From: Arenicola marina
Lineage: Eukaryota; Annelida; Polychaeta; Arenicolidae
Direction: 5' to 3'
NCBI GenBank assembly: GCA_964019135.1
Contig: OZ025255.1
Span: 40,020,811-40,084,810, forward strand
Length of the DNA: 64,000 bases
The notes below the pieces were generated by a model, which searched no databases, was not told the DNA's origin, and saw only the letters and a program-made list of their open reading frames with translations. Below, one piece after another: positions 5,467 through 45,323 of the stretch. The stretch's first letter is position 1. Each line of letters starts with the position of its first letter. Made by a program: the position numbers and the translations under genes.

Positions 5467-5819
5467 AGTGGGCGCATTTCTTTGGTAACCCGGGTGTATC
5501 CCTGCGGTGGACCGAATACGCACATTACGCATCGGTTGACCGCCCGACACTTCTTTCACCTGGGCATGGGTGCACGCGCATCCATTCGGTATGCCGATGT
5601 GCCCGTTCAAAACAGCACGGGACATTCAGGAGAAGATGGCGGCTGATTGAAAGGTGATGAGAGTAGGTTGGTTCCAGTGCTCGTACTTGCACCGGATATG
5701 AACGGTTTGTGTATTTCATTGGAGTAGGCATATCCCTATCGGCCCACCCGGAAGTTCGCTGTCACGTGTTGCGGGTCCCGAGCGGGATACCGAACCTGGC
5801 CCAAAGAAATGCGCCCAGT
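5467..5819. mobile_element. MITE with GGGCGCATTTCTTTGG ends
   Basis: Left end AGTGGGCGCATTTCTTTGG at 5467 is matched by its reverse complement CCAAAGAAATGCGCCCAGT at 5801-5819. The interior is GC-rich and non-coding. The superfamily is unassigned and no clear target duplication is seen. Confidence 0.7.
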
Positions 5820-6366
5820 CCCTCTGCCCCACGTCAAATTTAACCATCAGAATTATCCTTCATACGCGAAAATTTAAATTAATCTAATCGAAGATAAATT
5901 TGCAGTCTGGCATCAAATACACCACTGTTTAACATTTACTGTGCCACTGGTACCATACCTGACGAATGCATTTGATTTTGATTAATTTGAAGCCCTGTTA
6001 CTTTCGAACTATATTTTCGAGTGCGGTCGAGGTCAAGGGCGTGAAGTGTTTTGAACTTTGACCCGTGTTATTTTGAAATAATTTTTCGCTTAGCTATTCC
6101 AATGTGATCATTTGACAACGGAATGTCTATATTTTTCAAATTCTGCATCGAAAATTCAATATTCAATCTAAAAAAAAAACGTCTAAAACCATTCGTGACC
6201 CCAGGACCGTTGGGGTCAACCATGAGGTGTTCGGTGACGTGGGGCAGAGATGATGTGAGGAACGAGCGCCCTCTGCTGGCAGAGTGGTAGAACCCGTAGC
6301 CTGGTTCCACGGCCCCAACTTCACTTGTATGAGTTTGACCGGCGGTACCAGCTTATAGAACCCGTG

Positions 6367-6795: not shown

Positions 6796-7522
6796 TTAGA
6801 AATGCAGTAAAGGTATGTTCAAGCTAGTTTACAAAAATAGAGCAGTCTGTGTTAGAAAATAATTCCAAGTATGTTTAAATAGACAAATATAAAAGGACAA
6901 TTATTGAAATGTATAAATATTCTCAATTTCCAATTAAAAATAAAAACACATGGTGACGCATCTCTCGCGTCGTCTGCTTCACGCACTATGTTCTACAGGC
7001 GTGATCGATTCGCCTCTTCCAAAGTCTACCTCTTCCGGAAGAGTGCATGCAGTACGATCGTTTTGCCTCTTCTATTCCAAAAAGACCTCTTCTGCTCTTC
7101 CGCCCAGGTAGGTGAAACAGAAAAGAGGTAGAGGCTATTCCAAGATGGGGGAACCTAATTATGCAATATTCGCTCAATGTGACCAAATAGGTTTCAGGGG
7201 AAATACATGAATGAAACAATGTATAAAATTATGTGAAACATATGTAAGACCTTATATTTTGGTATTTGAAAGGCATGTGTCAGGTATATGAGGGTTCATG
7301 CATATATATGCAGTTAACCCTGTATCTATCTGTTGAAGTTGGGCGATAATATATGGACGTGGGCGATAGATCGTGAGCTATAAGTGAGTTTCCGTTGGCC
7401 ATATTGAAACTACTCTTCTAACTCGTCAGACGCGATCGATTCATCGCTCATATTCTCTGTTCTTGGATGAGCTCTTCACTTTCTGAAAGAGTTGAATCGA
7501 TTAGACTCTAAATGTAGAACAC
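6796..7522. other. Non-coding stretch upstream of the RecQ-like exons
   Basis: No recognised gene. It holds degenerate CTCTTCC-rich segments. It could include 5' exons of the helicase pseudogene that are too short to recognise. Confidence 0.4.
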
Positions 7523-8518
7523 GTGTCAGGGTATTTCAAGCCGACTCGGAGTGTCTTATGCCTTAAAGGAAAAACAGCTGCACGCCTTAAGTCGCCAGAA
7601 GAGGGAAACTCTACGTTTTGTCTTCTTCCAACAGGATATGGGAAGAGCGTTATATTTAGCTATTCTCCATTCATAATGAACGAGGTGAGCGCATTAAATG
7701 TGTTAAAGCTGCTCATGCAACAATTTGTAAACACATTAAAGCTGCTCATACATAAATTTTAGACGGATCTTGAATAGTTTAGAGAGAGCGTAACTTACTG
7801 AGATAAAGACAGTGCCAGATATATGAGAAGTAGTAGTTTAAGTAGTAGGCCTAAATTATCTGTCCACGTTAATATTTACAGAAACAGGGACAAGAAGGCA
7901 ACATAGCCCTCGTAGTGTCGCCATTAATGGCTTTGATGGGGGATTAGGTGGCCTCTTGGAGGAAGAATGGTGTCAAGTGCGCCGCCATCGTCAAGAAAGA
8001 AGAGATAGATGAAGTTGACATTGCAGGTGTATATAGTAGGGAGGGGAGGGGGGTCCAGTGTCCAGCGTCGATTTCATTCATTCTCAAATCAAATGTCGAT
8101 TTTTCACCACTTTTGGTGTCGCCTTTTGGCTAAATTCAGTATCTTATTTTTTTCAAAAATCTGTTTCGATGACGCTTTTTTAGATCCGCAGTGTCGGCAT
8201 TTGGGGGGCAATGTCGACTGTCGATTTTTCAAATATGCCTGCGTCGCGTGTCGCCATTTACACCTGTTTGACCGTTTATGGTGGGGGAAGATGTGGGGGT
8301 CGGGTCCACATTTAAAAGAATTATTTTCTGTCTTCCCAGTTAAAAGATGAATTCCCGGTTCACGAAGAATTAGTTTCCTCATTCTAAGCTCACTGTGAAA
8401 CAAAAAGCCAATCGACGAGGAACGGAAATATCCCTTGCCTCTCTCTCCTATCATATAGGTACCGCAGGTTTTGTTTATTTTTTTGTCTGACGCATGTAAC
8501 CACGAGCGTTTAAAGTTG

Positions 8519-8917
8519 CATGTCGAGCTCTTTCCCGCCAAAACTAAAGAGGTCAAAATACTAATAAGAATCAGTCCTAGAATCATTCAAGACTTCTTTT
8601 GTCTATACTCCACCCATGCCAGACTGCCAAATAGTGTCTCTTAGCCTTGCCCGTTGTATCAATTTACCACAAGTTTTCATTTTAGTGGTAAACGTCATCA
8701 GTTTGTGTGCTTCGCGATGCTTTGGTATAAGTAGCAGTACAGCGACCGAGTTCTATGGTGTCCCGGGATAGACAAGTTTGCCACACCATAGCCGAAACGG
8801 CGATGTTCATCAGATTTTTGAATTCATAGAATGAAACAATCGAGTTTTCTGCAAATTTTGATATAAATTTCGCCTAGGCTTAGTTTTGGCGGGAAAGAAC
8901 TCGACATGCAACTTTAA
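8519..8917. mobile_element. TTAA MITE, family B
   Basis: The left end TTAAAGTTGCATGTCGAG is matched by CTCGACATGCAACTTTAA at 8900-8917, with TTAA at both borders. The inverted repeat extends about 40 bp (through CTTTCCCGCCAAAACTAA). It is non-coding. It lies just left of the large transposon, in the intron of the helicase pseudogene. Confidence 0.8.
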
Positions 8918-8984: not shown

Positions 8985-9042
8985 TTACGGAGCCCCGCTA
9001 GGGACATTCAGAATTACTTTTTATCTCGTTCGCACGAGATAG
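8985..9042 (+). repeat. Left terminal inverted repeat of the large transposon
   Basis: Starts TTACGGAGCCCCGCTAGG, passes through ACATTCAGAATTAC and enters the first satellite unit. It matches the right end with G/C and C/T differences only. Confidence 0.9.
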
Positions 9043-10335
9043 TATCTCGTTCGCACGACATAGTATCTCGTTCGCACGACATACCATCTCGTTCGCACGA
9101 CATAGTATCTCGTTCGCACGAGATAGTATCTCGTTCGCACGAGAAAGTATCTCGTTCGCACGATATAGCATCTCGTTCTCACGACATAGCATCTCGTTCG
9201 CACGACATAATATCTCGTTCGCACGATATAGCATCTCGTTCGCACGACATAGTATCTCGTTCGCACGAGATAGCATCTCGTTCGCACGACATAGCATCTC
9301 GTTCGCACGACATAGTATCTCGTTCGCACGACTTAGTATCTCGTTCGCACGACATAGTATCTCGTTCGCACGACTTAGTATCTCGTTCGCACGAGATAGT
9401 ATCTCGTTCGCACGACATAGTATCTCGTTCGCACGAGATAGTATCTCGTTCGCACGAGATAGCATCTCGTTCGCACGAGATAGTATCTCGTTCGCACGAC
9501 ATAGCATCTCGTTCGCACGACATAGTATCTCGTTCGCACGACTTAGTATCTCGTTCGCACGAGATATTATCTCGTTCGCACGAGATAGTATCTCGTTCGC
9601 ACGAGATAGTATCTCGTTCGCACGACATAGTATCTCGTTCGCACGACATAGTATTTCGTTCGCGCGAGATAATATCTCGTTCACACGAGATAGTATCTCG
9701 TTCGCACGATATAGCATCTCGTTCTCACGACATAGCATCTCGTTCGCACGACATAGTATCTCGTTCGCACGATATAGCATCTCGTTCGCACGACATAGTA
9801 TCTCGTTCGCACGAGATAGCATCTCGTTCGCACGACATAGCATCTCGTTCGCACGACATAGTATCTCGTTCGCACGACTTAGTATCTCGTTCGCACGACA
9901 TAGTATCTCGTTCGCACGACTTAGTATCTCGTTCGCACGACATAGTATCTCGTTCGCACGAGATAGTATCTCGTTCGCACGAGATAGCATCTCGTTCGCA
10001 CGAGATAGCATCTCGTTCTCACGACATAGCATCTCGTTCGCACGACTTAGCATCTCGTTCGCACGACATAGTATCTCGTTCGCACGAGATAGTATCTCGT
10101 TCGCACGACATAGTATCTCGTTCGCACGAGATAGCATCTCGTTCGCACGAGATAGTATCTCGTTCGCACGACATAGCATCTCGTTCGCACGACATAGTAT
10201 CTCGTTCGCACGACTTAGTATCTCGTTCGCACGAGATAGTATCTCGTTCGCACGAGATAGTATCTCGTTCGCACGAGATAGTATCTCGTTCGCACGACAT
10301 AGTATCTCGTTCGCACGACATAGTATTTCGTTCGC
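9024..10335 (-). repeat. Left subterminal satellite array, 21-bp unit
   Basis: About 62 tandem units of 21 bp. The commonest core is ATCTCGTTCGCACGAGAT, a 7-bp palindrome around a 4-base loop, alternating with an ACGACAT variant that breaks one arm. Because 21 is divisible by three, all minus-strand frames stay open and give heptads such as SRANEIL. I do not regard these as protein genes. A higher-order repeat of 26 units is visible: the rare CGATATAGCA variant recurs 546 bp apart (9161 and 9707) with matching neighbours. Confidence 0.95.
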
Positions 10336-10459
10336 GCTGATCCCCTGCATTGTGCGTAGATGCACCTTCCATGTGAGAGCGGGCAAGTCTTGCCACACGT
10401 GGAAAGGATATTTCTTAATTGTTCATCTGACATCCTGGGACTCAAGGGCTGTTCATAAA

Positions 10460-11921
10460 ATGGCTGATCGAAATACATTAATTAGCCTTTATTTCCACTT
10501 AGGCTTCTCCTACAGCGAAATTGTTGCACTCTTGGCACAAAACCATAAGGTGATACTTTCTGAAAGGCATCTCAAGCGACTGCTGACAAACTTGGCGCTA
10601 TACAGACGCAAGCACTACACCGACGTCTCTGTCGTCGCTGACTTTGTACAGCAACAGTTGCAACAATCTGGAGAACTCCATGAATATCGGTGGATGCACC
10701 TTAAATGTTTACAACATGGATTTACAGTTCGAAAGGAGGACATACGGGCACTCCTGAAAATTCTAGATCCCGAAGGAGTAGAAATCCGAAGCAGGAGAAG
10801 GCTACGAAGACGAAGATATTTTGCAAGGGGTCCCAATTACTTATGGCATCTGGATGGGTATGATAAGTTGGCTCCATTCGGCATTTATATTAGTGGCTGT
10901 ATAGACGGATTTTCACGGAAACTTATCTGGTTAGAGGCAGGCCGTACCAACAAAAACCCGCGTGTAATCGCAGGTTATTATATCAAAGCTGTCACGACAA
11001 ATAAGGGAACACCCCTAAAGATGAAAGGTGATATGGGTACCGAGAACACATCCGTAGCCCAAATGCAAGCATTTCTCAGCGAGACCCGAGGTGATAGAGA
11101 TCAGCCGGCTTTCATCTACGGCACAAGTCAGCATAATCAACGCATCGAAAGTTGGTGGAGCATTTTACGGCGGGAAAATTCGCAGTTCTGGATGTCATTG
11201 TTTCAAGGCCTCAAAGAAGACAATCACTTTTCTGGAGATGCAATTGACAAAGGACTGGTTCAGTTCTGTTTCATGGGCCTTATCAAGGAAGGACTCGCTT
11301 GCTATAAAATTGCATAAGAAAAAGTGGCACAAAGCGGGAACGCTCATTATTTTAGAGATGCAAAACGCTATTAAAAGAGCAAACATTGCCATCGGACGCT
11401 GTAAGGCGAATGCCATATAATAACCCAAAACATGCAACAGACGGCCATTTTCTTATGGAGATGTTACCCCACCCCATTATGCGACGTGTTCAGTATTAAT
11501 AATACCTACGCGAACTACGATGATGACTGTTAAAACATGTTTAAATGTCGTGTAATGCGAGTCACGGAGGCCTACATGGTACATGGTATTATCCAATTAT
11601 TAGGCGGAAGTACACCAGATTCGTCAAGTGTGGGATGCTCATCGAATAAGATCGTCAAACAACGCCATCGGTGGGCGGCCGCAAGTCTTATACAGCATTC
11701 CTCAGATTTGCAACGCTACAAACTTCCTTTGCGATGTCGACGCCGATCGCCTGGCGGTGTGCAGTGAAGAGTGTTTATTTGACGGACAGCACTGCGATCA
11801 AGACGTTCACGATCTAGCCACGTCTTATATGGATGTGCACGACTGGGCCATGCCGAGCGACGCTTACGAGGCAGCTGACCTGTATGTACGAATAAGACGC
11901 TGCTTTTTGGAAGACCTTTGA
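10460..11921 (+). CDS. rve-fold DDE transposase/integrase-like protein
   Basis: The likely start is ATG 10460 (MADRNTLISLYFHLGFSYSE); an earlier in-frame ATG adds unrelated residues. An N-terminal helix-turn-helix-like region (about 1-55) precedes an arginine-rich patch SRRRLRRRR, then the catalytic core. D132 lies in LWHLDGYDKLAPFG, D191 in KGDMGTENTS and E230 in NQRIESWW, a D-58-D-38-E spacing typical of rve/DDE enzymes that cut and join DNA. The first frame closes at 11317. The family's C-terminal domain resumes at 11604 after a TTATTAG acceptor-like site (AEVHQIRQVWDAHRIRSS, then the Cys-bearing CSEECLFDGQHC), ending at 11921. The 11301-11603 gap has no GT donor where one is expected. It may be a non-canonical intron, a small insertion or decay. 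It sits directly inside the left satellite array and faces the SAM-HECT gene. Confidence 0.85.
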
Positions 11922-12048
11922 AGTTATTACATGATAGAATTGGCCTAAATATGGGTATAGGCGTAAAGAGAACAAAAGTGGAAAATCGTGTCTATATTTA
12001 GACTTTCGTTTTTGGTTAATACATGATTTAACCTTTGATCGATTGATC

Positions 12049-12054
12049 AATAAA
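12049..12054 (+). terminator. AATAAA poly-A signal for the transposase gene
   Basis: AATAAA lies 128 bp past the transposase stop, on its strand. It is the only such hexamer close by. Confidence 0.55.
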
Positions 12055-12152
12055 CAATGTATTGTAGGACTATTTGCTTTTATTATTTCAATGCACAGAA
12101 AGCAAGCAAACGCAATGATGTTGAACAAATTGGCCAGCAACATAGAAATCGG

Positions 12153-12158
12153 TTTATT
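12153..12158 (-). terminator. AATAAA poly-A signal for the SAM-HECT gene
   Basis: TTTATT on the plus strand gives AATAAA on the minus strand 94 bp past the SAM-HECT stop. The two poly-A signals of the convergent genes are only about 100 bp apart. Confidence 0.55.
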
Positions 12159-12251
12159 GTCTTCTTTTTCGATAAAGGTAATTTCTTTTAAATTGCTGTA
12201 TTCGGCCAGGAGAACTTAAACGGCTTTGAAAACCTAAACGTAGTCCATACT

Positions 12252-15200
12252 TCAAACAGAACTTGGCAGTATTCTGTTCATGTCCGACCTAAAGTCCGGA
12301 TAATTTCCGTACGTTGACGATAGATGTAGCATGCTCGTGCATGTATTTGACACTGGTCTTCTCTCGAAATCACTCATTCTCCTAAAGTAGACGCTTATGT
12401 ACTGGCCGAGGAGGCTGTCGGAACCGGTACAAAATCGTAAGAAAGCTTGACGTGTATGAACATTGACATCCTTGATAAATTTTCTCAAGTACTCTGCTAC
12501 AGCTTCTTCATCGGCACTCATCGTATCAGGAAAGACCAGGAACTTGAGTACGTTTTTTGGCGTGCCTCGTCTCTCTTGCAGCAACGCATTCCTCTTATCT
12601 CTTGGCAAGGTGTCAGCAAGACCTCGCAGTACAGGTCTCCATTGCTCGATCACAAAACTGGGCGCTTGAATAATTTCTTTGTGTGCAATTTGCATGACCA
12701 GCTGGTGTAGATTTTCTTTCGAAGGTATGTGCTTGCATTTGTAAGCATCCAGTACCTCCAACAATTCATCATCTTCAACTGTGTCAAAGTCATGCAACGC
12801 CTTCTGCAATATATCTCTCTCAGACGCAGCGACATAGCTAAAGAATGCATCACGCAATCCATCGCCATGTTGTCCGTAGAGAGCTTCGTCTAGAAAGGGA
12901 CCTGCCAATTGCAGTGGAAAGTATTGTACGAACTCCCATCCCTTCCTTAAAATGCGCGCCACTGCCCTCCACTTTTCTGGACCATAGTCATGCCTTATAA
13001 AAGGGACTTTCAGCTCGGCACCAAGTGTACAACGCTCGTCAAATTCACCCCAAAATTCGGTGAGAATGTCCCTCACTGCACTGACGCCATGGCCGTTTTC
13101 TACTTGACCATTTGGTGAAATCAATTCAACATCAAATTCCTTGTTGACAAGTTCAGGTTGGGCAATGAATGCCTCTAGTAGATCATCAAGTGCATATCCT
13201 CTTCTGATTCGGATTTTTTCTGTCGGTGTGCTGGTCAAATCAGGCAACAGTACAGTATCATCTAGATTGTCAACATTCTGCTCAGCTGGTTCGAAGAATA
13301 CCTCGCTCTCATCGGAGAGATCGGGAAAGTCCCAATCTAACACCGCTTGCACCGCACTGGTTGTGGCTTCCTGGTAGTCTTTTTGCAGATGTTTTTGCAA
13401 ATCTAGCACCACGGTTTGATATTCACTGTTAGATGTAAGCAAAGTTGATTGCTGTTCCAGTCTCGACGCTGATGTTACCGTTGCAGATGCACCAGTGTTC
13501 CTTCGGCCCAACAACTTTAGACGACTGTTGACATTGGTCACTTCTATAACCCCACTGGGTTTAAAATCGTCCGACTGCACTTTTGATTGAATATCGCTTG
13601 AAGTGGACTCACCAATAGGCCCCGTGCTACCAACCAGTCGTTTAGTGTACAAGTAAAAACGCAGCATTTTGACTTTCATATGATGGTAGAGGTCGCCTAT
13701 AGTAGATTCTTGCTTGTCTAATGAGGTTTCCCGGAAGTCCATCAGATCGAACGAGAATTCATCAACGGATCCCTTTTTGGACTTTCCTTCGGGAAAGAAC
13801 AGGTCTTTGGCCGTCTGTAGTATAACCTCCATTTTGGTGGTCTTTGTCACAATCAAATGCCTTGTACCGCCACCGCTCTTCATCCTAACTTGTTTGAACG
13901 CCTTCTTGTCAAAGTCGTAGTCCATCCACCCCAGTTCCACGCGACGCCTGTCTTTCTGCGCATTTCGATTGCTGGGGTAGTCGCTTTCAGACTCTTCGCT
14001 GCATGACTTTCTCTTTCGCTGCATTAACTTTCCTCTTAGTCGGTCAATAACACTTTGTCCTGTCTGGGCTCCTAATGGTCCATCGGTTCTTTTGGACGCT
14101 TTCCTGGCAAAGGCAACAGTTGCCAGGCGATCTCCATAAGCGGGGATGTACTTCTCCAGTGCCTCCATGTCCATCAGCGATATAACACTGCAGTCAATCT
14201 GCAGCAAAACAAAAATCTAGACATATCGTAAATCAGCCCCACACATATCGCTTTGGAATACCCTTTAAGACAATTCTAACTTAAAGTCAAAGTCATAAAT
14301 GCCGTAGACACACGTTTCGGCCTATATTTTCCGCGATTGTGCTGCGATCGCTCTACAAATCACTGACATGAGAAAGCAACACTAGACCATTTTAATGATA
14401 CCAAACTTACGTTTGTACTGCGATGTTATCCTTTTTATGACACAAACAATATTTCTCCATGCTGACACTCCATTGGCAGCAGACACACTTTCGCAAATAG
14501 ACTAAATCCCAGACAATGAAAGGCTCTATAGTTGCCATGGCATCCTCGTGGCTTGTATAAATATAGAGCATGTATTGTTCAAAGCACGTTCGGCGCCATG
14601 GCAACCATCATTTTATGACGCGTGTTTTAGTATTTTGGCGACAGAGCGTTTTCTGCCAATGGCGTGTCAGCATGGAGAAATATTCTTTGTGTCATAAAAA
14701 AGGATAACATCGCAGTACAAACGTAAGGTTGGTATCATTAAAATGGTCTAGTCTTGCTTTCTCACGTCATGGATTTTGAGAGTGATCGAGGCAAATTCGC
14801 GGAAAATATGGGCCGAAACGTGTGTCTACGGCATTTATGACTTTGACTTTAATACAACAGTGCTCCCTGGCGAAAGCATTGGAACTAGCGTAAGCTGGTA
14901 CCACCGCTCCTACTCCTATATAAGTATTGCTGAGTGAGCGAAGGTGGGGCCGCAGAACCAGGCTAGAACTGGCGTTGCAATGCGTCTCCGCGTTGTTTCC
15001 CCATTGTCAGTGAAACGTCTGCATGAACCCAAGACTCTCAATGCATTTTAAGTGTGTCAGCATATCAAAAGATGGCACCAATCTACTTAAAGAATAACTC
15101 AGAGTACCAACAATTTTCTAAGGGTCTTGCTAAGCTCGTATGTTTTTTCTTTGGTTATTTTCGCTAAGTTCAAGACAAGTAGCGCTAAATTGATCTCGGC

Positions 15201-15823
15201 GACCCCCCCCCCCCCCCCCCTCTTTTTAGCCTATTTTGCTACATCATAATCCAGTCACATGGTATAAAAACATCAGAAACATGTAATGACTTTTTAACAT
15301 TGTAGCAGAAAGTTGCTAAAATAATACCTCTCTAACCACAAGGTTTCCGGTATCACCATATATATTAACATATATTCCCCTCGTTTTACGTATAAATATT
15401 ACATAATGTAGATTTATTCATATAACTTATATGTTATACTGGTATGATCCTAAATGTAAAGACATACATATTGACAACTTCCGCAACTGTTTGTGAACAC
15501 TATAATGAATAGATTTTGGTAGATTTGAGAAATGATATTTACAAATAAGGAATGAGAAAAGAGGTTTGATTACGGGTTGAACCTTACGCCCTGGCGAGCT
15601 GGCCTCAAGGCTCCTGTGAGTGTGTGACTGTGACTTGTGAGTGCGAGCGTGAGTGATGACCATTGAAGTGTTGACCCCTGATTCAGCACAATAGTACTGC
15701 TAAGCATATGTCTGAACGAGGCTAGGCCTGGTGCATACTCACTTTGTGGTCTTTAATTCTCTGCAAATGTTCATCGTCGACATCGCGATCCTGTAAAAAC
15801 TTGATAAGCTGGTCCTCTGCCAT
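12252..15823 (-). CDS. SAM-like plus HECT-like (G2E3-like) ubiquitin-ligase-type protein
   Basis: Two exons. Exon 1 is 15823-15743 (MAEDQLIKFLQDRDVDD...), ending at GTGAGT. Exon 2 is 14198-12252, after a TTGCTGCAG acceptor, in phase, giving about 675 residues. Residues 1-60 form a small helical SAM-like domain (RIKDHK joined to IDCSVISLMDMEALEKYIP). A middle domain holds GGGTRHLIVTKTTKMEV and DLFFPEGKSKKG. The C-terminal third resembles the HECT lobes of G2E3-like proteins (KVPFIRHDYGPEKW, FLRFCTGSD). SNTCTSMLHLSSTYGNYPDF near the end keeps the Cys (about C647) that in HECT ligases takes ubiquitin. The frame has no stops or frameshifts, so it may be active. An upstream in-frame ATG (15913) would add 30 residues. 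Its place within the transposon, opposite the transposase, suggests a partner or host-interaction role; this is inference. Confidence 0.85.
14281..14852. mobile_element. TTAA MITE, family C, in the SAM-HECT intron
   Basis: It starts TTAAAGTCAAAGTC and ends GACTTTGACTTTAA. The arms stay complementary for well over 150 bp (GCCGTAGACACACGTTTCGG, and ATCGCAGTACAAACGTAAG near 14710 paired with about 14403-14430). It is a fold-back element with TTAA borders. It lies within the only intron of the SAM-HECT gene, so it postdates that gene. Confidence 0.85.
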
Positions 15824-15913
15824 GATACCGAATTTGGTGAATGATGACCGAGTGAACTGAAACCCCCTGGGTTCTGTTTTTTTGCGAGGCCTATGGAGCG
15901 CCGTGGCGGACAT

Positions 15914-17432
15914 ATATCCCGCTATAACATTTGGTGACTTTAAGGCCAGCTTCTGGGGAAATTAATTGGTAAAATTAATATAACTTACCCATAGAAGAGT
16001 AAATATTGAAGCAATGTGGGTGATTGCATAAGATATATGACTCACAGTTTGGCAAGTGTGGCATTGTTTAGTCCCTCAATTCTGAACGAGCAATGCTGCA
16101 GTTTTCGCGCAAAGTGGCGTAGATGAAGGTTCCGGTTTCATTGTTTATTACTACGCGAATTATATGCAGGGTTTGGGGTTTGTCTAGATATTCAGTTGAA
16201 TTAGTGTTTTTTGAGAAAGGGTGGAGCAGAACGGGTTACAAGTGTTCAATTTATAATATCTAATATCAACGTGTACATGCTTTTTTCATGCTTTGCGTGC
16301 CATAGTTTCCACAGCACTGTGACGTAATGCCTTACTGTTTGCGCGCGTGCACGTGTCGCCATATCAACAAAACGTTTGAAAATGGTTGGGGGGTGGGGTG
16401 GTGGGGGGCACCCTAGCCGATTCCGTGATGGAGGTTATTGCATAGGCGGCAGAACAGATAATATATGAGAGAAGAGGGGTGGGGGGGGGGGGGGGTACGT
16501 TGCTTTTTTCATTTCACTTGTAAACAGTTTTCATTTGTTAAATTACACTTTTTCGCAGTCTATGTAGGTCTATTCCAGCATTTATGGTAGAGACGGGGAG
16601 GGAGTAGTTTGGAGTTTGTATTACTAAAATCTACTTAAACATTTTTGTGTTTGTTGTTAATTTCTATGTCCAGTCGTTTGATCCAAGAACCTTCCTTATA
16701 GTTATTGCTTCTTTCCAATTCTCTATAACTCCACATGCATGATAAACCAAGATTGATGGATACAGAGTCAACAGCACACTATTTAGCCTGGCCGTTAGCT
16801 ACTGAAAAGCAAACTTTTATCAATTATTTGATTACAAACATCAATTATTTACTACAAACACCAAGATTGAAGGATACACAGTCAACAGCACATTTTTTGT
16901 CCTGGCCGTAACTATTGCAAAACAAACACTCATCAATTATGTAATTAGTAGTTATAGTGATGTTTCAAGCCCGTCAGAATGTGATATAGATGGAATCCGG
17001 TCGTTAGTTGAGCTATCTCCGGGTTGGTTGGTTGGTTGTATATTCAGGACGCTTTAAGCACTTTTCTAACTCCGGGAACCGCGGTCTTGTACGTTAAGCA
17101 ATACACGAAGGAGGCCCCCATTTTCAGTTCCGACCCCACGGGCGCGGGGGGGGGGGGCAAACCTATGGTTAGCTATACACACATGTGCCGCCCAAATGAC
17201 AACAAACAAATTCTCTCTCGAGGACCACGAAATCTCGCACTTTCTCTAGTTCTCCATATATGCCCACTATGGCACGGGCGGCACAACCCCACCACTATAG
17301 ACATGTCGTGCTTACTATGTAGTCTCCCCTCCCACGCCCCCGGTTTCCGACCGGTCACTGGTTTTTAGCAAAGCATATAGGATATCCGCACTCATGTGAC
17401 CCTTCCTTCTCCTGGCGCTAAATCTACCAAAG
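15914..17432. other. Non-coding right part of the large transposon
   Basis: Upstream of the SAM-HECT gene; it should hold its promoter, but no TATA box can be chosen with confidence. Poly-G runs lie near 16390, 16485 and 17145. A tandem duplication of about 112 bp is visible, with CAAGATTGATGGATACAGAG at 16749 and a diverged copy at 16861. Confidence 0.5.
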
Positions 17433-17439
17433 ATACTAT

Positions 17440-17687
17440 GTCGTGCGAACGAGATACTATCTCGTGCGAACGAGATACTATGTCGTGCGAACGAGATACT
17501 ATCTCGTGCGAACGAGATACTATGTCGTTCGAACGAGATGCTATCTCGTGCGAACGAGATACTATGTCGTGCGAACGAGATACTATCTCGTGCGAACGAG
17601 ATACTATGTCGTGCGAACGAGATGCTATGTCGTGCGAACGAGATGCTATGTCGTGCGAACGAGATGCTATCTCGTGCGAACGAGATA
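17440..17687 (+). repeat. Right subterminal satellite array, 21-bp unit
   Basis: About 12 units of the same 21-bp satellite as at 9024-10335, in inverted orientation (ATCTCGTGCGAACGAGAT). It is much shorter than the left array. Confidence 0.95.
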
Positions 17688-17724
17688 AAAAATAATTCTG
17701 AATGTCGCTAGCGGGGCTCCGTAA
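17667..17724 (-). repeat. Right terminal inverted repeat of the large transposon
   Basis: On the minus strand it reads TTACGGAGCCCCGCTAGC, then GACATTCAGAATTAT, then the first satellite unit. It matches the left end except at two positions. Confidence 0.9.
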
Positions 17725-18870
17725 AATCGGCTGGTTGTGTGACCCTTGCATGTCTTCGCCTCTCCAAAAGCCATTACAGAGAAGTATTGGTTCACCGTAA
17801 TGAAGGCGCTGAAATCGAGGATCTGCTTGCTTGCTGTAGATGAGGCTCACTGCGTTATCACATGGTTATGTGACTTTAGATACAGAGCTATTTAAGCAAT
17901 GAATAAAGAACGAATATTTGGTTGCCAGCGCGCATGAATGAGTCGGAGCACAAATGACACATTCCATTTATTCGAGCCGTTGTTTCAGAAAACGGCATTT
18001 GCACAACCAGTTCGCAACACTCAATTCACAGCACCCAATTCACTACTTTACTACGGTCTTGCCGTAACAGCGGTGGCTGACACATAACAATAAACATACA
18101 ACATTTGTGCAAGTTTGAAATACCAGAGGCGACTCAGGGCAGTACGTTTACTATCTTCTATTGTGCTACTTCTTCAACTACAGGGGTGACAGCTTCCGGG
18201 ACCAAAATAAACGGACCAGGGAATTGCGTTCCCTCATGGGCCATATATAACATTTCATCTATGTATAAGTAGATCGTACGCGGACAGGTACATATATGTT
18301 TCTGGAATAATCGTCTACGCGCTCACAAGCTTTTTAAATACATTAAATGTACCAGCCATTCAGCTCGATATTTAAACCATAAATGACTATAAACGACTAT
18401 TCACAGTTAATTCTGTCCAAGACATGCATGACATTTATAAAACAAAGGGTTGCCTATGACCTTTGTCCCCACCACAGACCCATTGATGCCGTGTCGCGGA
18501 CGTTCGACCAGCTTTCCATCCCCTTGGAAGAAGTCAATCTCGACCATTTCATCGACATGTTCCACGGGTAACTGGACCAGGTGAACGAGGTGGAGATACC
18601 TGCCGCATTCTGTCGTGGCGGACCCGCAGTGCCTTGCTTGGTGTCCACTGTGGCATTCGGGCTTGGGATGTACGTGCCGGAAGTCCGCTCCGTGATACAC
18701 TGGGGACCACCCAAGAATCTGTTGGACTGTTGGCAGGAGGTAGGGAGGTGTGCGCGGGATGATGCAGAGGGAAAAGCCATCTGGTACACCCCAGCTGGGG
18801 GCTTCGGATACCCCCCCCCCACCCCCCCGCCCTCCCCTTGTGTCATAGTAAGTCACGCCACGGGTCTGAT

Positions 18871-20828
18871 ACAGTCAGCTTACGAAATAATCTTCTGTCA
18901 TCGGGTTTTAGGTTTGGTTGTGCACAAAGGCCAATGAGCGCAACCTATTGAGTGTGACTGGAGTGTTTTGCCTAGAGGGTGGGTGACAATTTCGCCGGGG
19001 GGAGGGGGGGCAATATCAGAACTAAGCTATAAAAGTTAATGGGGGGGGGGACTGAAGAATATACTCCATTTTCTTGTTTCACAGAGATAGGGTTTACGAT
19101 CATGTTATCGTGTTTGAAGTTTTATATATGGAGAAAGGTCAATACATGCAACCTGTTGGTGGTTAGTGCGAGAAGTGAGAGTGAGAGGAGATGAAATATG
19201 TGACATACATACATTATACAAAGAACTAAATAGGCCTCGCATAACCTTTGCCTGATTTTTCGAATATGTCGTTGCAAATGAAAGATGTTTGGGCCGCCGT
19301 TCTGCCCAACTGCAAAAGGCGCACGCCGCAGCACGCGCGTTGTACAGACGACGCACAACGATATATTTGCACCCGATATGCGTTTGTTCGTCATTTCCTT
19401 CGAGCGGTGATCGTATCCACTTACGACATTGGGCGTATTCGATTGAACCGATTCTGCTGCTCTAGAATCTAGAAAAGCCACTCAGCGCGTTCGATTGGTA
19501 CCTGCTCCAGTTCTGGAACTACCAGAACTTACTCCTCCCCCGAAACAGATCAGTAAACAAGAACACGGAAAAATGGCGGCAGAGTATCCTGTGATATGCA
19601 CTAACCGGGTCTATGGTATCGCGCAGGGATCAGCCTTGCAAGCAAAAGGAGCCGGGGTCCAGAACCGGGGCGGGAGGGGGGCGGGGGGGGGTAGATACAT
19701 ATTAAATACATTATTTTAGGCATACTGATAAGCTGAACTACGCTAAATAGAATTTATATCTTAAGAGACTATTGTCAGTTGATTTTAGTGATGTTTTTTT
19801 TTCACTTAAACATCATGTCTTTTCTGAGGTTCCCCTGAAAGGGATGCCATCAAGCATGTACGTCACCTCTAACAAAAAGCTAAAACATATTTCCACACAA
19901 ACCTGACGTTGCATACAAAAAAACGGAATTAAACAAAAAAACAAATTAAAGATATATGTATGTGACTCTTGACGTGTAAACAGTTATTCACATGTGAGAG
20001 GGAGATTAACATCTATTGGATGCCACAATATAGTCCTGTACAAAACCAAAAAACATTTCGTTGTCGCCGAACGACAAATCAGAGCACTCCTAAAGGGTAA
20101 GGCATGTTCCAAAATAAACTTTGTGTCAGTCTGCATGGATAACCGCGATATATTCTGAAGCAAGGCAACTCTGTCGATGCTGAACATTTTATGTTATATT
20201 CATTGTAGAATATAATACATTTAATACACATAATACTGCAAAGCAACAGCTGGTTGCTGATTCAATTGTTTGCTGGTGCCCCCGAGAACGTCAACCAAGA
20301 GATCATCGCGAAGTCTTTTAAAGTCCCAAAATACGGCAACTCAACGTGTCCGAAAACATACATATGCGGGGAAAAATACCAGTTTTTTGTTTTCTCTCTC
20401 GTGGTTTTATAGGGGCGTTCGAAAATATGCGTGAAAGACGATACATGCAATCTTGCAACATGCAAGAGCCTTTTCTCCAACGCCATTCTTGGCTGGTGTG
20501 GGTGTAACCACAGACTGGCTGGTTCCCGGCGAATCACCGTCCGCCATTATTGTTCCGAAAACAGAACACAGCGCATTCGATTGGTCACGCTGTTCTCACA
20601 ACCATCTACGCATTTCGATGTTCCTGTTCTCGAACGCTCCCAATCGCTGATCGAATGAATTTGAGCAGAGAAAGCTCTGACATTGCAAGATAAGGCAATA
20701 AATGAAAGTATTTTCTTTCCGCCAGGTCAGTAAATGGCATAAGGATTCTGGAAAGGTACAGGTACTGTCGGATAGTAAAGAAATATGCGCAGCAAGACCG
20801 CAAAGACAGCAAATGCTGCCTGGCTCTA
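18871..20828. other. Non-coding stretch with G-rich runs
   Basis: No recognised gene. It holds G-runs near 18995, 19040 and 19675. A short motif (CAGCGCGTTCGATTGG near 19485; CAGCGCATTCGATTGG near 20570) occurs twice and suggests a decayed dispersed repeat. Confidence 0.45.
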
Positions 20829-32049: not shown

Positions 32050-35000
32050 TATAGTATATATCCAATCCAAGACAATACCGACGTTTCCCCGGACACCACC
32101 CAGGATACGGCCTGCCAAAGTGGGCAAATTGCGGATCCAGAGACCTCCCAAGTCTCCGAACGGGCAAGCAGACCGCGCAAGAGAGACGAGCAGCCCCCTA
32201 TGCGGACCCACAGCAAATCAAAGGTCCGCAACGTAAAGGACAACTCTGCACGATGTCACAGCCAGGGATGCTCGCCAACCACGCGAAACTTCAGTATGGC
32301 CGACTGGTGCACGCCGTCAAACAAACGGAAGACCTTAGCCGGTACCCCGCCAGCCGAATCTGAACGTAAACTCGCCAGAGGGAGCAACGACGACGGCTGA
32401 GTTCACAGCGACCGTGGTCTTACATGGTCTAAAACGGTAACGACACCCCTCCATCCCTGCGGACCTACCTCTATGAACACTGGATTAATGGACAAAAACA
32501 ATGTGAAACCTAGGATGAATTTGATATTTCATGACAAAAGATAAATCAATGGGTGAAAATCTAAAAGGTGATATCGTGACTTGTACCAGTCTTAATGTAA
32601 GAGGTTCACGGAAAAGAGTAAAACGTGAAAAGGTCTTCATGTTCCTTAAAAATAAGGGTGTTGATATCGCGTTTCTGCAGGAAACATTCGTCACGGATAG
32701 TTTCGTTGGTAAATTTAATAGAGAGTGGGAAGGAAAGGCATTTCATTCAGTAAGTGATTCTTCTCACAGTAGAGGCACAGCCATTCTAGTCAGCACTAAG
32801 CTAGATTTTGAGTCGATTAGTGCACATATTGGTAATGAAGGTAGATCACTGTTAGTAAACTGTGTGATAAAGGGAACAGAATATTGTTTGGTAAATGTGT
32901 ATGCACCAAATGACGGCAAAGCTAGAGTTGACTTTCTTCAAGCATGTACGTAATTGGATTCTCCAGAACTCATGCAATGCCTCTCAAACAGTGGTTGGGG
33001 GGATTTTAACACCGTGGATGCCAGTATTGACAGAAAATCTGGTCATCTTGACCATAGCTCATCTGAATTTACTGTCTTTAAGAAAGTGCTAAATCTGGGG
33101 GATGCTTACCGTTGTTTGAATCCTTTGAAAAGGGAATACACGTATATAGACCCTTCTCCTAGAGGTAATTCCAGTCGAATTGATTATATACTTGTATCCG
33201 CAGATCTAATGGAAAAAGCTAGGGCGGCATATATTGTTCACGCGCCCACACCAGACCATAAGTCGATGCTTTTCAAGATCCGCATCTCGTCTAGCACCCG
33301 TGGGAGAGGATACTGGAAACTCAACAATTCTCTATTAACAAATGAATCTTATACAACTGGGATTATTGATATTTTAAATGAAACGACAGAAGAGTATCAG
33401 GATTATTGCTGTAAAAGAGATCTATGGGACTTGTGCAAAATTAAACTTAAGGAGCTTTCCATACATTATGGTATAATCCAAAGTAGAGTACGTAAAAATG
33501 CTGTGGAAAAGGTCGAGGAAGAGTTGAAAGTTATCGAGAGAGCCATAGACCTTCATAGCTCTACTGACTTGATAGTCAAAAGAACCACACTAAAAGCAGA
33601 ATACGATATGTTGATGTGTGATACCGCAAAAGGAGCTCAGATACGTGCTAGGGCAGAATGGATAGAGCAAGGGGAAAAAATACGTCTTATTTTCTCAATT
33701 TAGAAAAGTCTCGTCAATCTTATAATAGTATAGACATGTTAGAATCACCGGACGGAACCCGTATCACAAACAAAGATTGTATCCTGAAGGAATTGCATCA
33801 ATACTATGATAGCCTCTACAAAAGCAGGTCTCCTGACATTAACCATGTAAACAGTTATATTGACGCCGTAAAGGTTACAAATGTATTGTCAAAGGAAGAT
33901 CGCGATCTCTGTGAAGGATATGTGTCAGTGCAGGAATGTTCAAATGCACTTATGGCAATGAAACTAAACAAGTCTCCGGGAAACGACGGGCTCACCGTGG
34001 AGTTTTATCAAGCATTATGGCCATACATAAAAGATTTGTTAGTTGAATCATACAAGGAATGCTATGACGAGGAAATGTTGTCGGTTTCACAACGCACGTC
34101 GCTTTTAACGCTCATTCATAAAGGCAACTCTCGTGGATTACTTAAAAGCTACAGACCAATCACGCTATCTAATGTTGATTATAAGATCCTGGCACAAGCG
34201 CTGGCCCGGCGTCTTAAATCAGTCATATCTAGTATCATAAGCCCAGATCAAACTGGTTATATACCAAAACGGTTTATAGGTTGCAATGTCCGTATGATGC
34301 AAGACGTTATAGATTATGCAAATCGTAAACATGTCAGTGGTATTCTTCTATTTTTGGACTTCGAGAAAGCTTTTGACAGTTTAGAATGGGATTTTCTACA
34401 CCAGTCGCTAAAAAAATTTGGGTTTGGAAAATCATTCATTCAATGGGTCCGACTGTTATATAAAGATTCATCTGCACGGGTAAAAAACAACGGTCACTTT
34501 TCAAATCCTGTTAACTTGTCTCGCGGTATAAAGCAGGGCTGTCCACTCTCGGCGATGCTGTTCGTCATAGCTATTGAATTGCTGGCCATTAATTTAAAAA
34601 ACAATAAGGGTATAAAGGGTTTCAAGGTTTGAATCAGACAGCAAGAGCACGAGCTAAAGGTATCCCAATATGCTGACGACTTGACACTACTCCTACAAAA
34701 CGCCGGACAAATTACAGGGGTGCTCGATGAATTAAATGAATTTGAAAAAGTGGCAGGACTAAAACTAAACCTAGCAAAAACCATGTGTATGAATGTCGGT
34801 CACAGCGGGAATAAAAAAGAGGTAACCCCCCACGGTATAGCAATATTGGAAGAGCCTGTGAAGTGTCTCGGCGTGTATATCGGAAATGATAATGAAGAGT
34901 GTAATAATCTAAACTGGACTAACAAACTACTATCCATAGAGAAAGTCTTAAGTACCTGGAAAAAAAGAAAGTTAACACTCTTTGGCAAGCTAACTGTAAT

Positions 35001-36472
35001 AAAAGCCTTAATTATCCCAAAGATATCGTTTATTGCAACCTGCGTTATAGTGCCAACCCGACATAGTTAAGAAACTTAACAAGCTAGTGTATAATTTTAT
35101 CTGGAATAGAACGGAACGTATTAAACATAATGTATTGATGTCACCAAAAGCGTATGGCGGAGTGGCAATGATAGTATTAGACTCGTATATTGACTCCCTG
35201 AACGCCAAGTGGCTGATACGACTACTTGCAGATGAAAATAATGCAAATTGGGCTGTCCTAGGTAAAGGATATTGCTAGCAGTTTCAAACACCAATCGTTG
35301 ACATGTGAAAAAAGTGCATTGCCTGAGTTATCCAAGTTGCCCACCTTCTATTCAAATATCATAAGTGCGTACGCGAAAGCAAATTTTCGACCGAAGCCAC
35401 AAGATATCGAGAGTTTACTTGCTGAGTCTTTATGGGGAAACCAAAACGTAAGCGTAATGTTAGGTAACAGGAATGTAAAAACATGCCTACTCTTTAATTC
35501 GTTTATTAAGGTTGGTATCACTAAAGTACACCATATGAAATTCACAAATGGAAGTGTCGATGAAACCTACCTGTACCATAGGATAAATGACCAGAGAGAT
35601 GTACTGCGTCAAATCAAGTTACTAAAGAAAGCTCTATATCCATATAGAGATATAATGTTAAAGCTACGCGATGTCATGACTATTTTACCTTGTGTAACTA
35701 CAGGCTCTATTACATGTTTAAACAATAATATCAAATCTAAAGACATATATAAAGCGTTAGTAAGCTGTAAGTACGAGGTTAAAAAACCTCTGAAGGCGTT
35801 AGGCAATTGGTGTCTGCTACCTGCTGAGGAAGATACATTGGCAGCTTTTAGTCGAAAAGTGATTGACATCACAGACTCTAAATTGTCAGAATTTAACTAT
35901 AAGATTTTGCACAATATTTTAACTTGTAACTACAATCTGAAGAAAATGAAACTAAGAGAAAATGACTATTGTCCTTACTGTCGCGATTCTCATACCATAC
36001 CTCACATGTTATTCTGGTGTGATTATATCAATAACATTTGAAAAGCTGTTTCATTCGTAATGTGTAGAACTGTTACACCAGCCGACATCGTAACTGGTTG
36101 CAACAGCTATGTAGATAACTTTGGAATAACTGTATGCAGCTATATAATATACAAAATCTACCTGATACTTAAACAAAGAGAAACTAGATGTGTTCACTCC
36201 GATATCAATAAATTATTTCTGGCTGAATTAACACAAAAAATTAACATATACAGGGTAACCAGGGTAACAAAAATTAAAAATATATATAACTGGCTTGAGA
36301 AACTAAATATTGCATTGACGTAAACAATGTCTTTTCTTTCTTCATCATGTTTTATTGTTGTTGTGAATAAGTCAATTGGACTTGATGTACCTATGTACCG
36401 CACTTTTATTTTGAAATAATAAAAAAAAAAAAAAAAAAAAAATTACAAGAAAAAAAATATATATATATATGT
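32050..36472 (+). mobile_element. L1/Tx1-like LINE with 15-bp target duplication
   Basis: GTATAGTATAGTATA occurs at 32035-32049 and again at 36473-36487, bracketing the element. It ends in a poly-A of about 24 bases near 36419, then an AT tail. The 5' part (32050-32400) is a proline/arginine-rich remnant, probably the end of ORF1, so the copy is slightly 5' truncated. ORF2 occupies 32531-36323. It inserted at the 3' border of another LINE (36480-38030). Confidence 0.88.
32531..36323 (+). pseudogene. LINE ORF2: endonuclease, reverse transcriptase, zinc knuckle
   Basis: An AP endonuclease domain comes first (SLNVRGSRKRVKREK, LQETFV, GDFNTVDASIDRKSG, SRIDYILVS). Then the reverse transcriptase: NKSPGNDGLTVEFYQALW, LKSYRPITLSNVDYKI, FLDFEKAFDSLEWDFL, GIKQGCPLSAMLF and QYADDLTLLL with the YADD active site. 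Near the C-terminus is a CPYC...H...C knuckle (NDYCPYCRDSHTIPHMLFWC). Stops in the same frame lie at 32951 (TAA), 34630 (TGA) and 36039 (TGA). Frame changes occur near 33676 (in an A-run), 35065 and 35275. It is dead but recent enough for every domain to be legible. The RT best fits the L1/Tx1 group. Confidence 0.88.
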
Positions 36473-36479
36473 GTATAGT

Positions 36480-38030
36480 ATAGTATAATGTTTATTAAGT
36501 ACTTTAGGCACAACGCCCATGGTACATATATACAATTTTCGGTACAAAATTCATATAGATAACGTCCAAATACAAATATACACAAATATCAACTACAGCG
36601 ATGCTAAAAATGACTCTCTTATGGTGAATGCTTCGTAAACAAAACTGGCTAAAGTCATAACAACGTTGTCGTTTTTACTGCTAAAGAGTCTGTTAACATT
36701 TTCGGAAGAGTGATACCGTGTGTATACTTTTGGCAGTCTCTTATTCCGACTTGAGGCATATAATGGGCACATGATATTACAATAAAATGATATTCGTCTT
36801 CTACAAGATCCCCATGTTTGAAACAGAATTTGCAATAAATATCTTGTGGATCTATATTACAATGCCGACCTCTTTCAATTACTAAGCTATGAGCCGAGCA
36901 CCTCAACCTGGCTAGTGCCCTTCTCTAACTGATAACGTTAACACACCTCAAATATAATTCTAGCTCTAGTAAAGACTATCCATATCAGATTGCCATTCTT
37001 GTTGGGAAGTGTCTCTTAACCTCTGTTATACTTCATTCGTGAAAACATTTACATTTCCAACATCTTGAGATATCTAAGTAATACCAAATCCTAACTTAAA
37101 CAATATGTCTCTAACATGTGTAGCCCAAGTCGATCTGCCGACTCTATCAAGGTTGTAAATCGCGATATAACAGGACCTGAGTAGTCTAGATTCATCCATG
37201 TATATACGTTTGCACCAGTATTTCAATAATCTTTCTACACATACTACTCTAATTGGATGTATCCCACACTCGCTCCTTACAGCCACGCTAGTAATTAAGA
37301 GGTGTTACTCGGGAGCTGCAGAACTCTCCAACAAAAATTATTCTGAACATTTTCTATACACCAATGAGTACAGTATCCCCATACTTCGCTACCATAGGTT
37401 AGGATTGGGACAACCATTTTGTCAAAAAACATCCAGAGCATATCTATATAAAAAAGATTGGTACATTTTGACACGTGTAATATAACCGATACTGCTTTGG
37501 TTGCCTGAGTAGCAATATTCTGCTGAGCTTTAGTCCAACATAGCTGACTAGAGAAAATAATGCCCAGGTATTTGTAATATGATATGACCTCAATTTTCTT
37601 TCCATGGAAATACCACTTTTCGTTTGATTTTAAGACTCCCCATTTCGAAAGACCATTATTTTGGTTTTAGATAGGTTAACCGGTCGACCCCATAGTTGAC
37701 AAAATTCTAACAAACAATCAATAACCTTTTGCAAGTGGCCAATGGTATCGCTCATTTCGTTCATATCATCAGCATAGAATAGTGCAGAGACATTATCAAA
37801 ATACTCATCCAGACAAATAATATTATGTCCGGGTTTGGCACAATTTTCAAGAACTGTAATAACATAAATAATAAACAGTACTGGACTGATGAGACATCCG
37901 TGACGCGTACCAACCAACATTGCAAAGTACTCTGAAATCCCTTCACTTGTCGCTACCGCAGATAACAGTTTGGAGTACATGGAGCGCAATACATGTAGAA
38001 ATTGGCCATGCAATCCTGAGCTTACTAGCT
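36480..38030 (-). mobile_element. CR1/L2-like LINE, 5' truncated, minus strand
   Basis: Read from 38013 downward: GTRHGCLISPVLFIIYV, then SALFYADDMNEMSD with a YADD active site, VNLSKTKIMVFRNG, AVRSECGIHPIRVVC, and a C-terminal knuckle (CKFCFKHGDLVEDEYHF) with the end RESFLASL at 36593. The 3' UTR has ACCATGGGC and AATAAACATT, like the fragment at 3007-3330. Frames are interrupted at several points, so it is not active. The clade is judged by eye. Confidence 0.8.
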
Positions 38031-38965
38031 TGTATCAAAGTACAAGCTTGCATTAAAGTTGTATTAGTTCATCATTGGGGAGGCACAAAGACCGAGGACA
38101 TGGACGAAGAACACGGCGGGCAAAGTGATCTATCAACTAAGTAGTTTCTATTACTAGTTATCTGAAGATGAAGGTTCCCTGCCATCTCGCGCAAAGGTCA
38201 CAGCTCTAGCATGTTTTTTTCTGATTTTTGACGATTTTTTTAAGATGGACACAATCTCCATTGGCTAATCATTGGCGGCCCCACAAAGGTGTCGAGCGCT
38301 CTAACTAGGCGTGATCCGCCTAATTGAAGCATCAAGAAATCTGCAGATGCTTATTGATGACTAGTAGGCGAAAAGATTGCAATTTGAGAATTGTTATCTG
38401 ATTTTTGATGATTTTTCGTTAAAGGTTACACATCAATAGAAACCATCTCCATGATAAGCAATGGAAAACCCCAAACTTTCAAACCCATGCCAGAGAAAAA
38501 TCGGTAACCATGTTTGACTATGTGGGCCATAGGAAATTATAGAGCAATTATCCAATTTTATTTTAAAAACAAGCAGAACATAGGTTGACGTGCGATATTT
38601 TTTGCTACAGCCCATAGTATGACACCCCCCCTCCCACCCCCCCTAGCGCAACCCGCCGAAAATGAGAGACCCTGCGAATCAGCATGTGATTAGGTCGACC
38701 GAACCACGCACCCGTAACATCCGCATGTATGATTAAATACGCCACAGATTAATTGAATAGGCATTATCCTGGTCAAACATTAGTAAAAGAAACAATATCT
38801 GCCAAGACAAAAATAATTAGTAACCACATAACACTGACATACGACCATATTTTACTTGATAGTATATACTTTCCTACGCACGACCTATTGGTGTGTAACC
38901 TTAAATGGCAAGAATCTATATGTTTATCTTTAAAGCGGGTGGCCAATCTAATTTAATCGTGATCT
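38031..38965. other. Non-coding stretch
   Basis: No gene recognised. It includes a C-run near 38630 and an AT-rich interval. Confidence 0.45.
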
Positions 38966-44703: not shown

Positions 44704-45323
44704 CAGGGTGGTCCATAAAAAACGACCTATTTTACTTTCCATCTTAATTTTGATACAATTAAGATATTTGCAACTTTCTGTCACCAATTGTTCTATAAGG
44801 TTGATCATTTTATCTTTGCAAATTCTGCAGAAATTGGAAACCTTCAAGGTAGGCAAATTCCAATATTTGATCATGTGCTCTATCCACGCTATCCACGCTC
44901 CACGAAAGTCAGCGTGTTGACTTTCGTGGAGATTCCCGGAGACGGTCACGCAACGTCTCAATCCTGTTTGGAGTACGAACTGAAAATGGTCGACCACTGT
45001 GACCTTTATTATTGTTTCCAACACTCCCAGTCTCCTTTTAAACTTAGCTATCAGGCGCTCAATAGTCCGTCTGGTCCGCACATGTCCCCTTCCAAAATCT
45101 CCTGCATACTGTCCTTGCGTCTGAACCCCCGATTTTGTCGCAAAGTAGGCCTTAACGAGTTGTATCCGCTGCTGCATCGTATACTGCCTGTTCAGATCCA
45201 TATAGATATCAGAAGAATTTTCTGGGCCTCTACTCTATATCACGTGAAAATAATGGAGCAATATCATTAGAAACATTTTTTTAGAGGGAAAACAAAAATA
45301 GGTCGTTTTTTATGGACCACCCT
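44704..45323 (-). mobile_element. Mariner/Tc1-like deletion derivative with transposase remnant
   Basis: The ends are CAGGGTGGTCCATAAAAAAC (44704) and GTTTTTTATGGACCACCCT (to 45323), the terminal style of IS630/Tc1/mariner elements, with TA at the left border. A minus-strand frame from 45201 reads MQQRIQLVKAYFATKSGVQT and FGRGHVRTRRTIERLIAKF, resembling the N-terminal helix-turn-helix of mariner-type transposases. The DDE catalytic part is absent. A small perfect hairpin (CCACGAAAGTCA and TGACTTTCGTGG, 44909-44938) lies inside. Confidence 0.8.

Follow-up and report, generated by a model that had tools for sequence, protein, structure and literature searches.

A candidate IS3EU-like DNA transposon with a convergent HECT-type gene in the annelid Arenicola marina

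Transposons of the IS3EU families have TA..TA ends and a target-site duplication that is usually 6 bp long, according to an excerpt of their description (PMC10045372). In the excerpted account of rust-fungal IS3EU elements (PMC12730594), the TET-bearing ones have ends of the form TAYGG..CCRTA and terminal inverted repeats (TIRs) of over 30 bp; these rust-fungal elements carry TET/JBP and alpha-kinase genes, with the kinase gene opposite to the transposase gene and TET/JBP between them, and an escape from host silencing is proposed for those that bear TET/JBP. Here we describe an element in a stretch of 64,000 nucleotides of the annelid Arenicola marina (GenBank assembly GCA_964019135.1, contig OZ025255.1, positions 40,020,811 to 40,084,810; hereafter the window, in which all positions are counted). 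The element is built like a DNA transposon: its ends have the form TAYGG..CCRTA, and between them lie a gene for a DDE transposase and, convergent with it, a HECT-type gene (Table 1). We favor, with reasonable though not high confidence, the interpretation that this is an IS3EU-like transposon whose HECT gene is inherited together with it as an accessory gene and is not a chance neighbor. An initial annotation of the window, which had proposed a transposon pairing a DDE transposase with a SAM-HECT ubiquitin ligase-like gene, is partly supported.

Ends, satellite arrays and transposase gene

The pattern TTACGGAGCCCCGCTAGNGACATTCAGAATTA, with up to three mismatches allowed, has two sites in the 64 kbp, at 8985-9016 on the forward strand and 17693-17724 on the reverse strand, and no occurrence in 100 shuffles. 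The end sequence of the element can be written as TACGGAGCCCCGCTAG[G/C]GACATTCAGAATTA, and this too occurs twice in the window, in inverted orientation. Reading inward from 8986 and 17723, the third mismatch falls at base 58, and the initial count of two mismatches in about 58 bp is thus accurate to within one base. The proper TIR comprises about the first 36 bp of the 57 bp, or 34 bp with two mismatches by a narrower count, the remainder being already satellite, and the two ends of the element are 94% alike over 297 bp.

The oppositely oriented arrays of a 21-bp satellite that had been noted at both ends are present (Table 1), and their consensus unit, TATCTCGTTCGCACGACATAG, is identical in the left and right arrays in mirror orientation; in the left array it is matched by 95% of the bases. 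Over 20 bp the unit is 80% palindromic, and neighboring units form a single-stranded DNA hairpin better than shuffles do (z -3.7 and -3.5). Within 9002-11317 the satellite, whose unit is seven codons long, is open in several frames, and one stop-free frame of 771 codons spans the array and continues into the transposase gene. This frame was considered as an N-terminal extension of the transposase and rejected because it contains no ATG before 10460, where the first one stands.

The joined transposase exons form an open frame of 381 codons. Exon 1 matches the integrase core domain rva_4 (Pfam PF24764) at 1.1e-26, in agreement with the rve-type DDE transposase gene annotated here; the match to the NCBIfam IS3 transposase model is 1.5e-5 with 24.5 bits, far under its cut-off of 160. 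The residues D132, D191 and E230 are invariant across a four-member transposase alignment, and exon 2 alone has no Pfam match. The exon borders were placed by eye from a homologous contig, L001 (see below; FCFGDLLRQDLDEFVTDWNAHPIR). With the border so set, the donor behind exon 1 is GA instead of GT, which suggests that the window copy does not splice its transposase normally. No further copy of the transposase gene or the HECT gene was found within the window.

From the end signature and the IS3/rve-type transposase we infer, with good support, that the element is kin to the IS3EU superfamily, its closest named relative, as had been surmised. Because ends, TIRs and transposase fit this assignment and the target-site duplication does not (see below), we file the element as IS3EU-like. 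The TET/JBP and alpha-kinase precedent makes an extra enzyme gene opposite the transposase gene a known habit of such elements. In the literature searched, no paper mentions both IS3EU and HECT, none of the papers listed by broader searches deals with such a pair as far as titles and the openings of abstracts tell, and we found no HECT gene beside an IS3EU-like transposase; Repbase lay outside this search and may hold such an entry.

Table 1. Positions of the element, its components and the flanking RecQ-like pieces in the window
Feature	Position	Strand	Remarks
Whole element	8986-17723		8738 bp; TIR-bounded, ends TACGG..CCGTA
Left terminal inverted repeat, TACGG...	8986-9021	+	2 mismatches vs right end in 57 bp
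Left subterminal 21-bp satellite array	9022-10335	+	62.6 copies, 93% matches
Transposase exon 1	10460-11287	+	276 codons; D132, D191, E230
Transposase exon 2	11604-11921	+	105 codons and stop; acceptor ..TTATTAG
HECT-gene exon 2	12252-14198	-	648 codons and stop; acceptor TGCAG
Nested palindromic element	14281-14852		572 bp, TTAA at both ends, in HECT-gene intron, 82% self-inverted
HECT-gene exon 1	15743-15823	-	27 codons from ATG; donor GTGAGT; chosen by eye
Right subterminal array, 21-bp satellite inverted	17431-17687	-	12.2 copies, 93% matches
Right terminal inverted repeat, ...CCGTA	17688-17723	-	Pattern search and end-to-end comparison
RecQ-like piece	7505-7762	+	LPTGYGKS; Pfam DEAD 0.054 only
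RecQ-like piece	17743-17895	+	VDEAHC, by eye; no Pfam match
RecQ-like piece	18572-18934	+	Pfam Helicase_C 2.2e-7

The HECT-type gene and its recurrence beside a diverged transposase

The HECT-type gene is convergent with the transposase gene, and their stop codons lie 330 bp apart. A HECT C-lobe with the motif RRPVSNTCTSML occupies the C-terminus encoded by exon 2, and the Pfam HECT family (PF00632) matches at 3.6e-5, with 24.0 bits vs a cut-off of 23.9, over profile positions 211-281 of 306. The catalytic Cys of SNTC aligns with the Cys of SHTC in E6AP (phmmer, PDB 6tgk, E 0.46). A profile built from this HECT region and that of a second contig, L020 (see below), finds six PDB sequences at E <=1, the best at 0.016, and all six are HECT ligases: E3C, HERC6, E6AP (three) and HECTD3. 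The stop-to-stop HECT frame extends for 654 codons, vs a longest of 200 and a median of 134 in 200 Markov shuffles of 10341-17430. The gene had been called SAM-HECT; the HECT C-lobe with its Cys stands, but the SAM domain is not supported, as the N-terminus joined from exons 1 and 2 matches no Pfam family at E <=1 and SAM is absent from the five PDB sequences matched up to E 10. The TTAA-ended palindromic insert in the intron of this gene goes beyond the initial annotation.

Relatives of the transposase were found in contigs of bacterial bins. The pattern WHxDGYDKL occurs on one contig, L001, in a bin (G001) whose label is that of a sponge symbiont, Cycloclasticus. Read by eye, the L001 transposase has several exons with GT..AG borders, and L001 is therefore most likely sponge DNA inside the bin, although joining all of its exons into one open frame did not succeed. 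Near this transposase, at 51-152 and 381-573, a CGACGATC repeat of 17-18 bp forms arrays in mirror orientation, an architecture as in the window. Six contigs with rva_4 matches were compared, L001, L017, L018 and L019 from G001 and L020 and L021 from G161, a second bin from the same order. The matches of L017-L020 are 1e-50 or better, L001 (1.7e-7) and L021 (3.5e-6) give split or partial matches, and prokaryotic transposases match rva_4 weakly, at about 1e-9 and weaker. The L020 transposase has a GT..AG intron and joins into 402 open codons, and this intron, despite the bin, points to a eukaryote as the source of the contig. All six are eukaryote-like transposon contigs, at least two of them (L001 and L020) with GT..AG introns, and this contamination is usable as a view onto unsequenced hosts.

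Wider searches returned to the same two bins. In the order of G001, 44 of 201 genomes match rva_4 at E <=1e-4, and only G001 and G161 are far above the prokaryotic background; among 398 genomes of the phylum only G001 is found, at 1e-15. An alignment, A2, finds G001 and G161 at 1e-12 among 311 genomes of the order and G001 among 369 of the class; these genome sets overlap, and the A2 scans gave no new genome since A2 itself includes sequences from both bins. The HECT alignment A1 likewise gave no new HECT: of 311 genomes it matched one, G161, which had itself supplied a sequence to A1. Contig C236 of G001 gave a weak match (E 0.0099) that was not used. Scans of viral_contigs with the TIR, the satellite, two transposase patterns, both proteins and both alignments found no relatives (59 and 40 stretches fitted the pattern in two of the scans, none confirmed by tblastn), and neither did searches of plasmids with the HECT protein and of phages with the transposase.

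A transposase tree was built from ten rows: the window, L001, L017, L018, L020 and five prokaryotic rows (five of L011-L016); it does not include L019 and L021. Its only starred split, at 100/100, separates the five eukaryote-like transposases from the five prokaryotic ones. Within the eukaryote-like group the closest partner of the window is L001 (92/91), and L020 groups with L018 and L017 (85/90).

The transposase-HECT pair recurs on L020. This contig (8233 bp) holds both an rva_4 match (1.4e-75) and a HECT match (1.5e-6; 28.5 bits), and the two genes stand tail to tail as in the window, with stop codons 185 bp apart. The L020 HECT frame is 27% identical to the window HECT over 322 amino acids (E 2e-25; BLASTP 2e-28), a divergence similar to that of the transposases (26% identity), and the catalytic-Cys motif is conserved in both; by BLASTP the N-terminal part of the window HECT (13500-14198) has no similarity to L020 frame 3-341. 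The presence of the same gene pair on so strongly diverged a contig suggests that the HECT ligase belongs to this kind of transposon. The earlier placement of both genes in one TIR-bounded unit is supported by the TIRs, which occur only at its two ends, and by the mirrored satellites. In the window and the six rva_4 contigs, neither of the two outcomes that the initial annotation named as refuting it was seen. The pairing recurs but is not universal. HECT genes occur in both branches of the tree, which fits either an old association with losses or two acquisitions.

Alternative origins and a possible role for ubiquitination

Several observations weigh against a transposon with a HECT ligase of its own. 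The Pfam match is confined to the HECT C-lobe, with no match in the N-lobe, and AlphaFold single-sequence models were unusable (mean predicted local distance difference test scores of 38 and 40). The co-occurrence of transposase and HECT genes expected from the initial annotation is seen on L020 and not on the other five rva_4 contigs of the two bins, when both HECT proteins are used as queries and matches below 1e-3 are counted. The clearest negative is L017, which has no HECT in the 1031 bp past the transposase stop though it groups with L020. Weaker negatives are L018, with retroelement-like frames after the transposase (by eye), L019, which ends 57 bp past the match, L001, whose last exon was not located, and L021, which has a transposase fragment only. 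In G161 the L020 HECT query matched itself only, so that this bin yielded no further HECT gene, and none was found in G001. On its HECT side, contig L020 ends before any second terminus, and enclosure of a HECT gene by TIRs is thus visible only in the window. Beyond the L020 transposase there are palindromic repeats at 5662-5855 (5760-5860 folds with z -4.5) and past these, reading inward from 5903, an end-like TATGGCACGCCACTAGTAACA, which resembles the window end in TA-GG, CC, CTAG and ACA; this pattern was written post hoc, and a looser one is expected 0.6 times by chance on L020. Finally, the one copy examined has no 6-bp target-site duplication, a feature not covered by the initial annotation, and is flanked by ATATAT and AAATCG.

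The absent duplication could be a product of recombination between two copies of the element or of misassembly. The two flanks differ as this would predict, and satellite arrays, here of 62 and 12 units, are prone to recombination and assembly error. Neither process accounts readily for the likeness of the two ends or for the recurrence of the gene arrangement on L020, and among the alternatives this is the one to which we give the least credence.

Nesting by chance, in which a HECT gene from the host or from another mobile element came to lie inside an unrelated transposon, is also improbable, and it would make L020 a second coincidence. Nested elements do occur here, as the TTAA-ended palindrome in the HECT intron illustrates, and movement of the 8.7 kbp as one unit is supported by neither a target-site duplication nor a second copy. 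However, a self-comparison of the window (blastn, E <=1e-3, satellite rows removed) reveals no further pair of inverted repeats around the HECT gene, and on L020 the pair is convergent once more.

Uptake of a host HECT gene or fragment by an IS3EU-like element to which it is useless is unlikely, though it deserves the most weight of these alternatives. Transposons often carry pieces of host genes, five of the six rva_4 contigs have no HECT, and the window copy looks damaged. Passive uptake would nonetheless require similar genes to have been captured twice and arranged alike, given that a homologous HECT gene stands convergent to a transposase only 26% identical, and a long open HECT frame that keeps its catalytic-Cys motif is not what it predicts.

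If the HECT gene is instead an accessory gene inherited along with the transposon, a transposition cycle can be sketched by analogy. The transposase would bind the ends, with the mirrored 21-bp arrays serving as multiple binding sites or a landing zone, and as a DDE enzyme would cut the element out and insert it elsewhere by cut-and-paste. The HECT protein could then act in trans, using its C-terminal Cys to attach ubiquitin to some protein by which transposition is limited. By analogy with the escape from silencing proposed for TET/JBP-bearing elements, we lean, tentatively, towards a host silencing or repair factor as the target; a somewhat less likely target is the transposase itself, either for turnover or so that the post-integration complex is cleared, and the remaining probability goes to other targets or to a dead gene. 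The roles in transposase stability, host repair or chromatin suggested initially are equally conjectural. The window copy is probably inactive: it has no target-site duplication, the donor in its transposase gene is not GT, and another element is nested in its HECT intron.

A bolder proposal, which we regard as speculative and rather unlikely, is that an ancient animal branch of IS3EU-like transposons has kept its own HECT ligase through deep divergence, with ubiquitination as a part of the transposition cycle; ubiquitin would mark the transposase for removal after integration, or would remove a blocking host factor. 

A mobile HECT ligase would add ubiquitin signaling to the tools with which transposons handle their transposase or their host. 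The accessory genes known from eukaryotic DNA transposons, as far as the excerpted sources describe them, are those for a TET/JBP dioxygenase and alpha-kinase, a helicase and a homing endonuclease. Host genomes could also have gained lineage-specific HECT genes from such an element, and the transposase and ligase offer a concrete pair for biochemistry.

Surroundings of the element and comparison with known systems

On either side of the element the forward strand holds collinear fragments of a RecQ-like helicase (Table 1). They were considered as a third gene of the element and rejected because they lie outside the TIRs. The pieces are probably a broken gene or an older element, and given their position on both sides the transposon may lie within the remains of an old RecQ-like gene; directly beside the TIR, the left flank has no RecQ-like reading of its own.

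Other mobile or element-like sequences are present in the window. At 8510-8917, some 70 bp away from the transposon, lies an element of 408 bp that has TTAA borders and inverted ends of 38 bp (97%). At 54241-55187, inverted arms bearing ACCGAAACCG repeats are perhaps another small element with mirrored repeats, and 27-30 bp of its left side (AAGCTCCCCGCACGGTGGCGCTACGC) are also found near 6370 and 20830. At 42308-43738 there is an element-like segment with inverted ends (87% over 38 bp) and CCATAGCCCGG-type repeat arrays in both orientations. A retroelement of the long interspersed nuclear element (LINE) type occupies 32525-36038, with an endonuclease (7.1e-6) and a reverse transcriptase (1.5e-25), an incomplete second one lies on the other strand at 37633-38034 (8e-12), and a reverse-strand open frame at 44704-45231 with a DUF4817 helix-turn-helix (1.8e-9) possibly encodes a mobile-element protein.

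With HECT E3 ligases such as E6AP/UBE3A (PDB 6tgk) the window protein has in common the C-lobe with its ..TC.. catalytic Cys motif; the similarity is very weak, Pfam does not recognize the N-lobe, and the window gene differs in lying inside a transposon. Among transposons, AcademH (PMC10045372, in excerpt) and KolobokP, the latter also from a partial description, resemble the window element in having a second enzyme gene, but this encodes a helicase in AcademH and a homing endonuclease in KolobokP, and both have transposases of other superfamilies. As far as the excerpted descriptions of the Repbase superfamily IS3EU / GingerRoot extend, the window element shares with them TA..TA ends, with TACGG..CCGTA fitting TAYGG..CCRTA, a TIR of over 30 bp and an IS3-like rve-type DDE transposase with D, D and E. 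An extra gene opposite to the transposase gene is common to the window element and the TET-bearing fungal families. The element differs in that its extra gene is HECT-like, in its long mirrored 21-bp subterminal arrays, and in the lack of a 6-bp target-site duplication in this copy. The TET/JBP-bearing IS3EU elements, in the same excerpted account, likewise combine a transposase gene with a gene for a modifying enzyme, but those elements are fungal and encode a dioxygenase, next to whose gene lies one for a kinase, whereas the enzyme of the window element is ubiquitin ligase-like.

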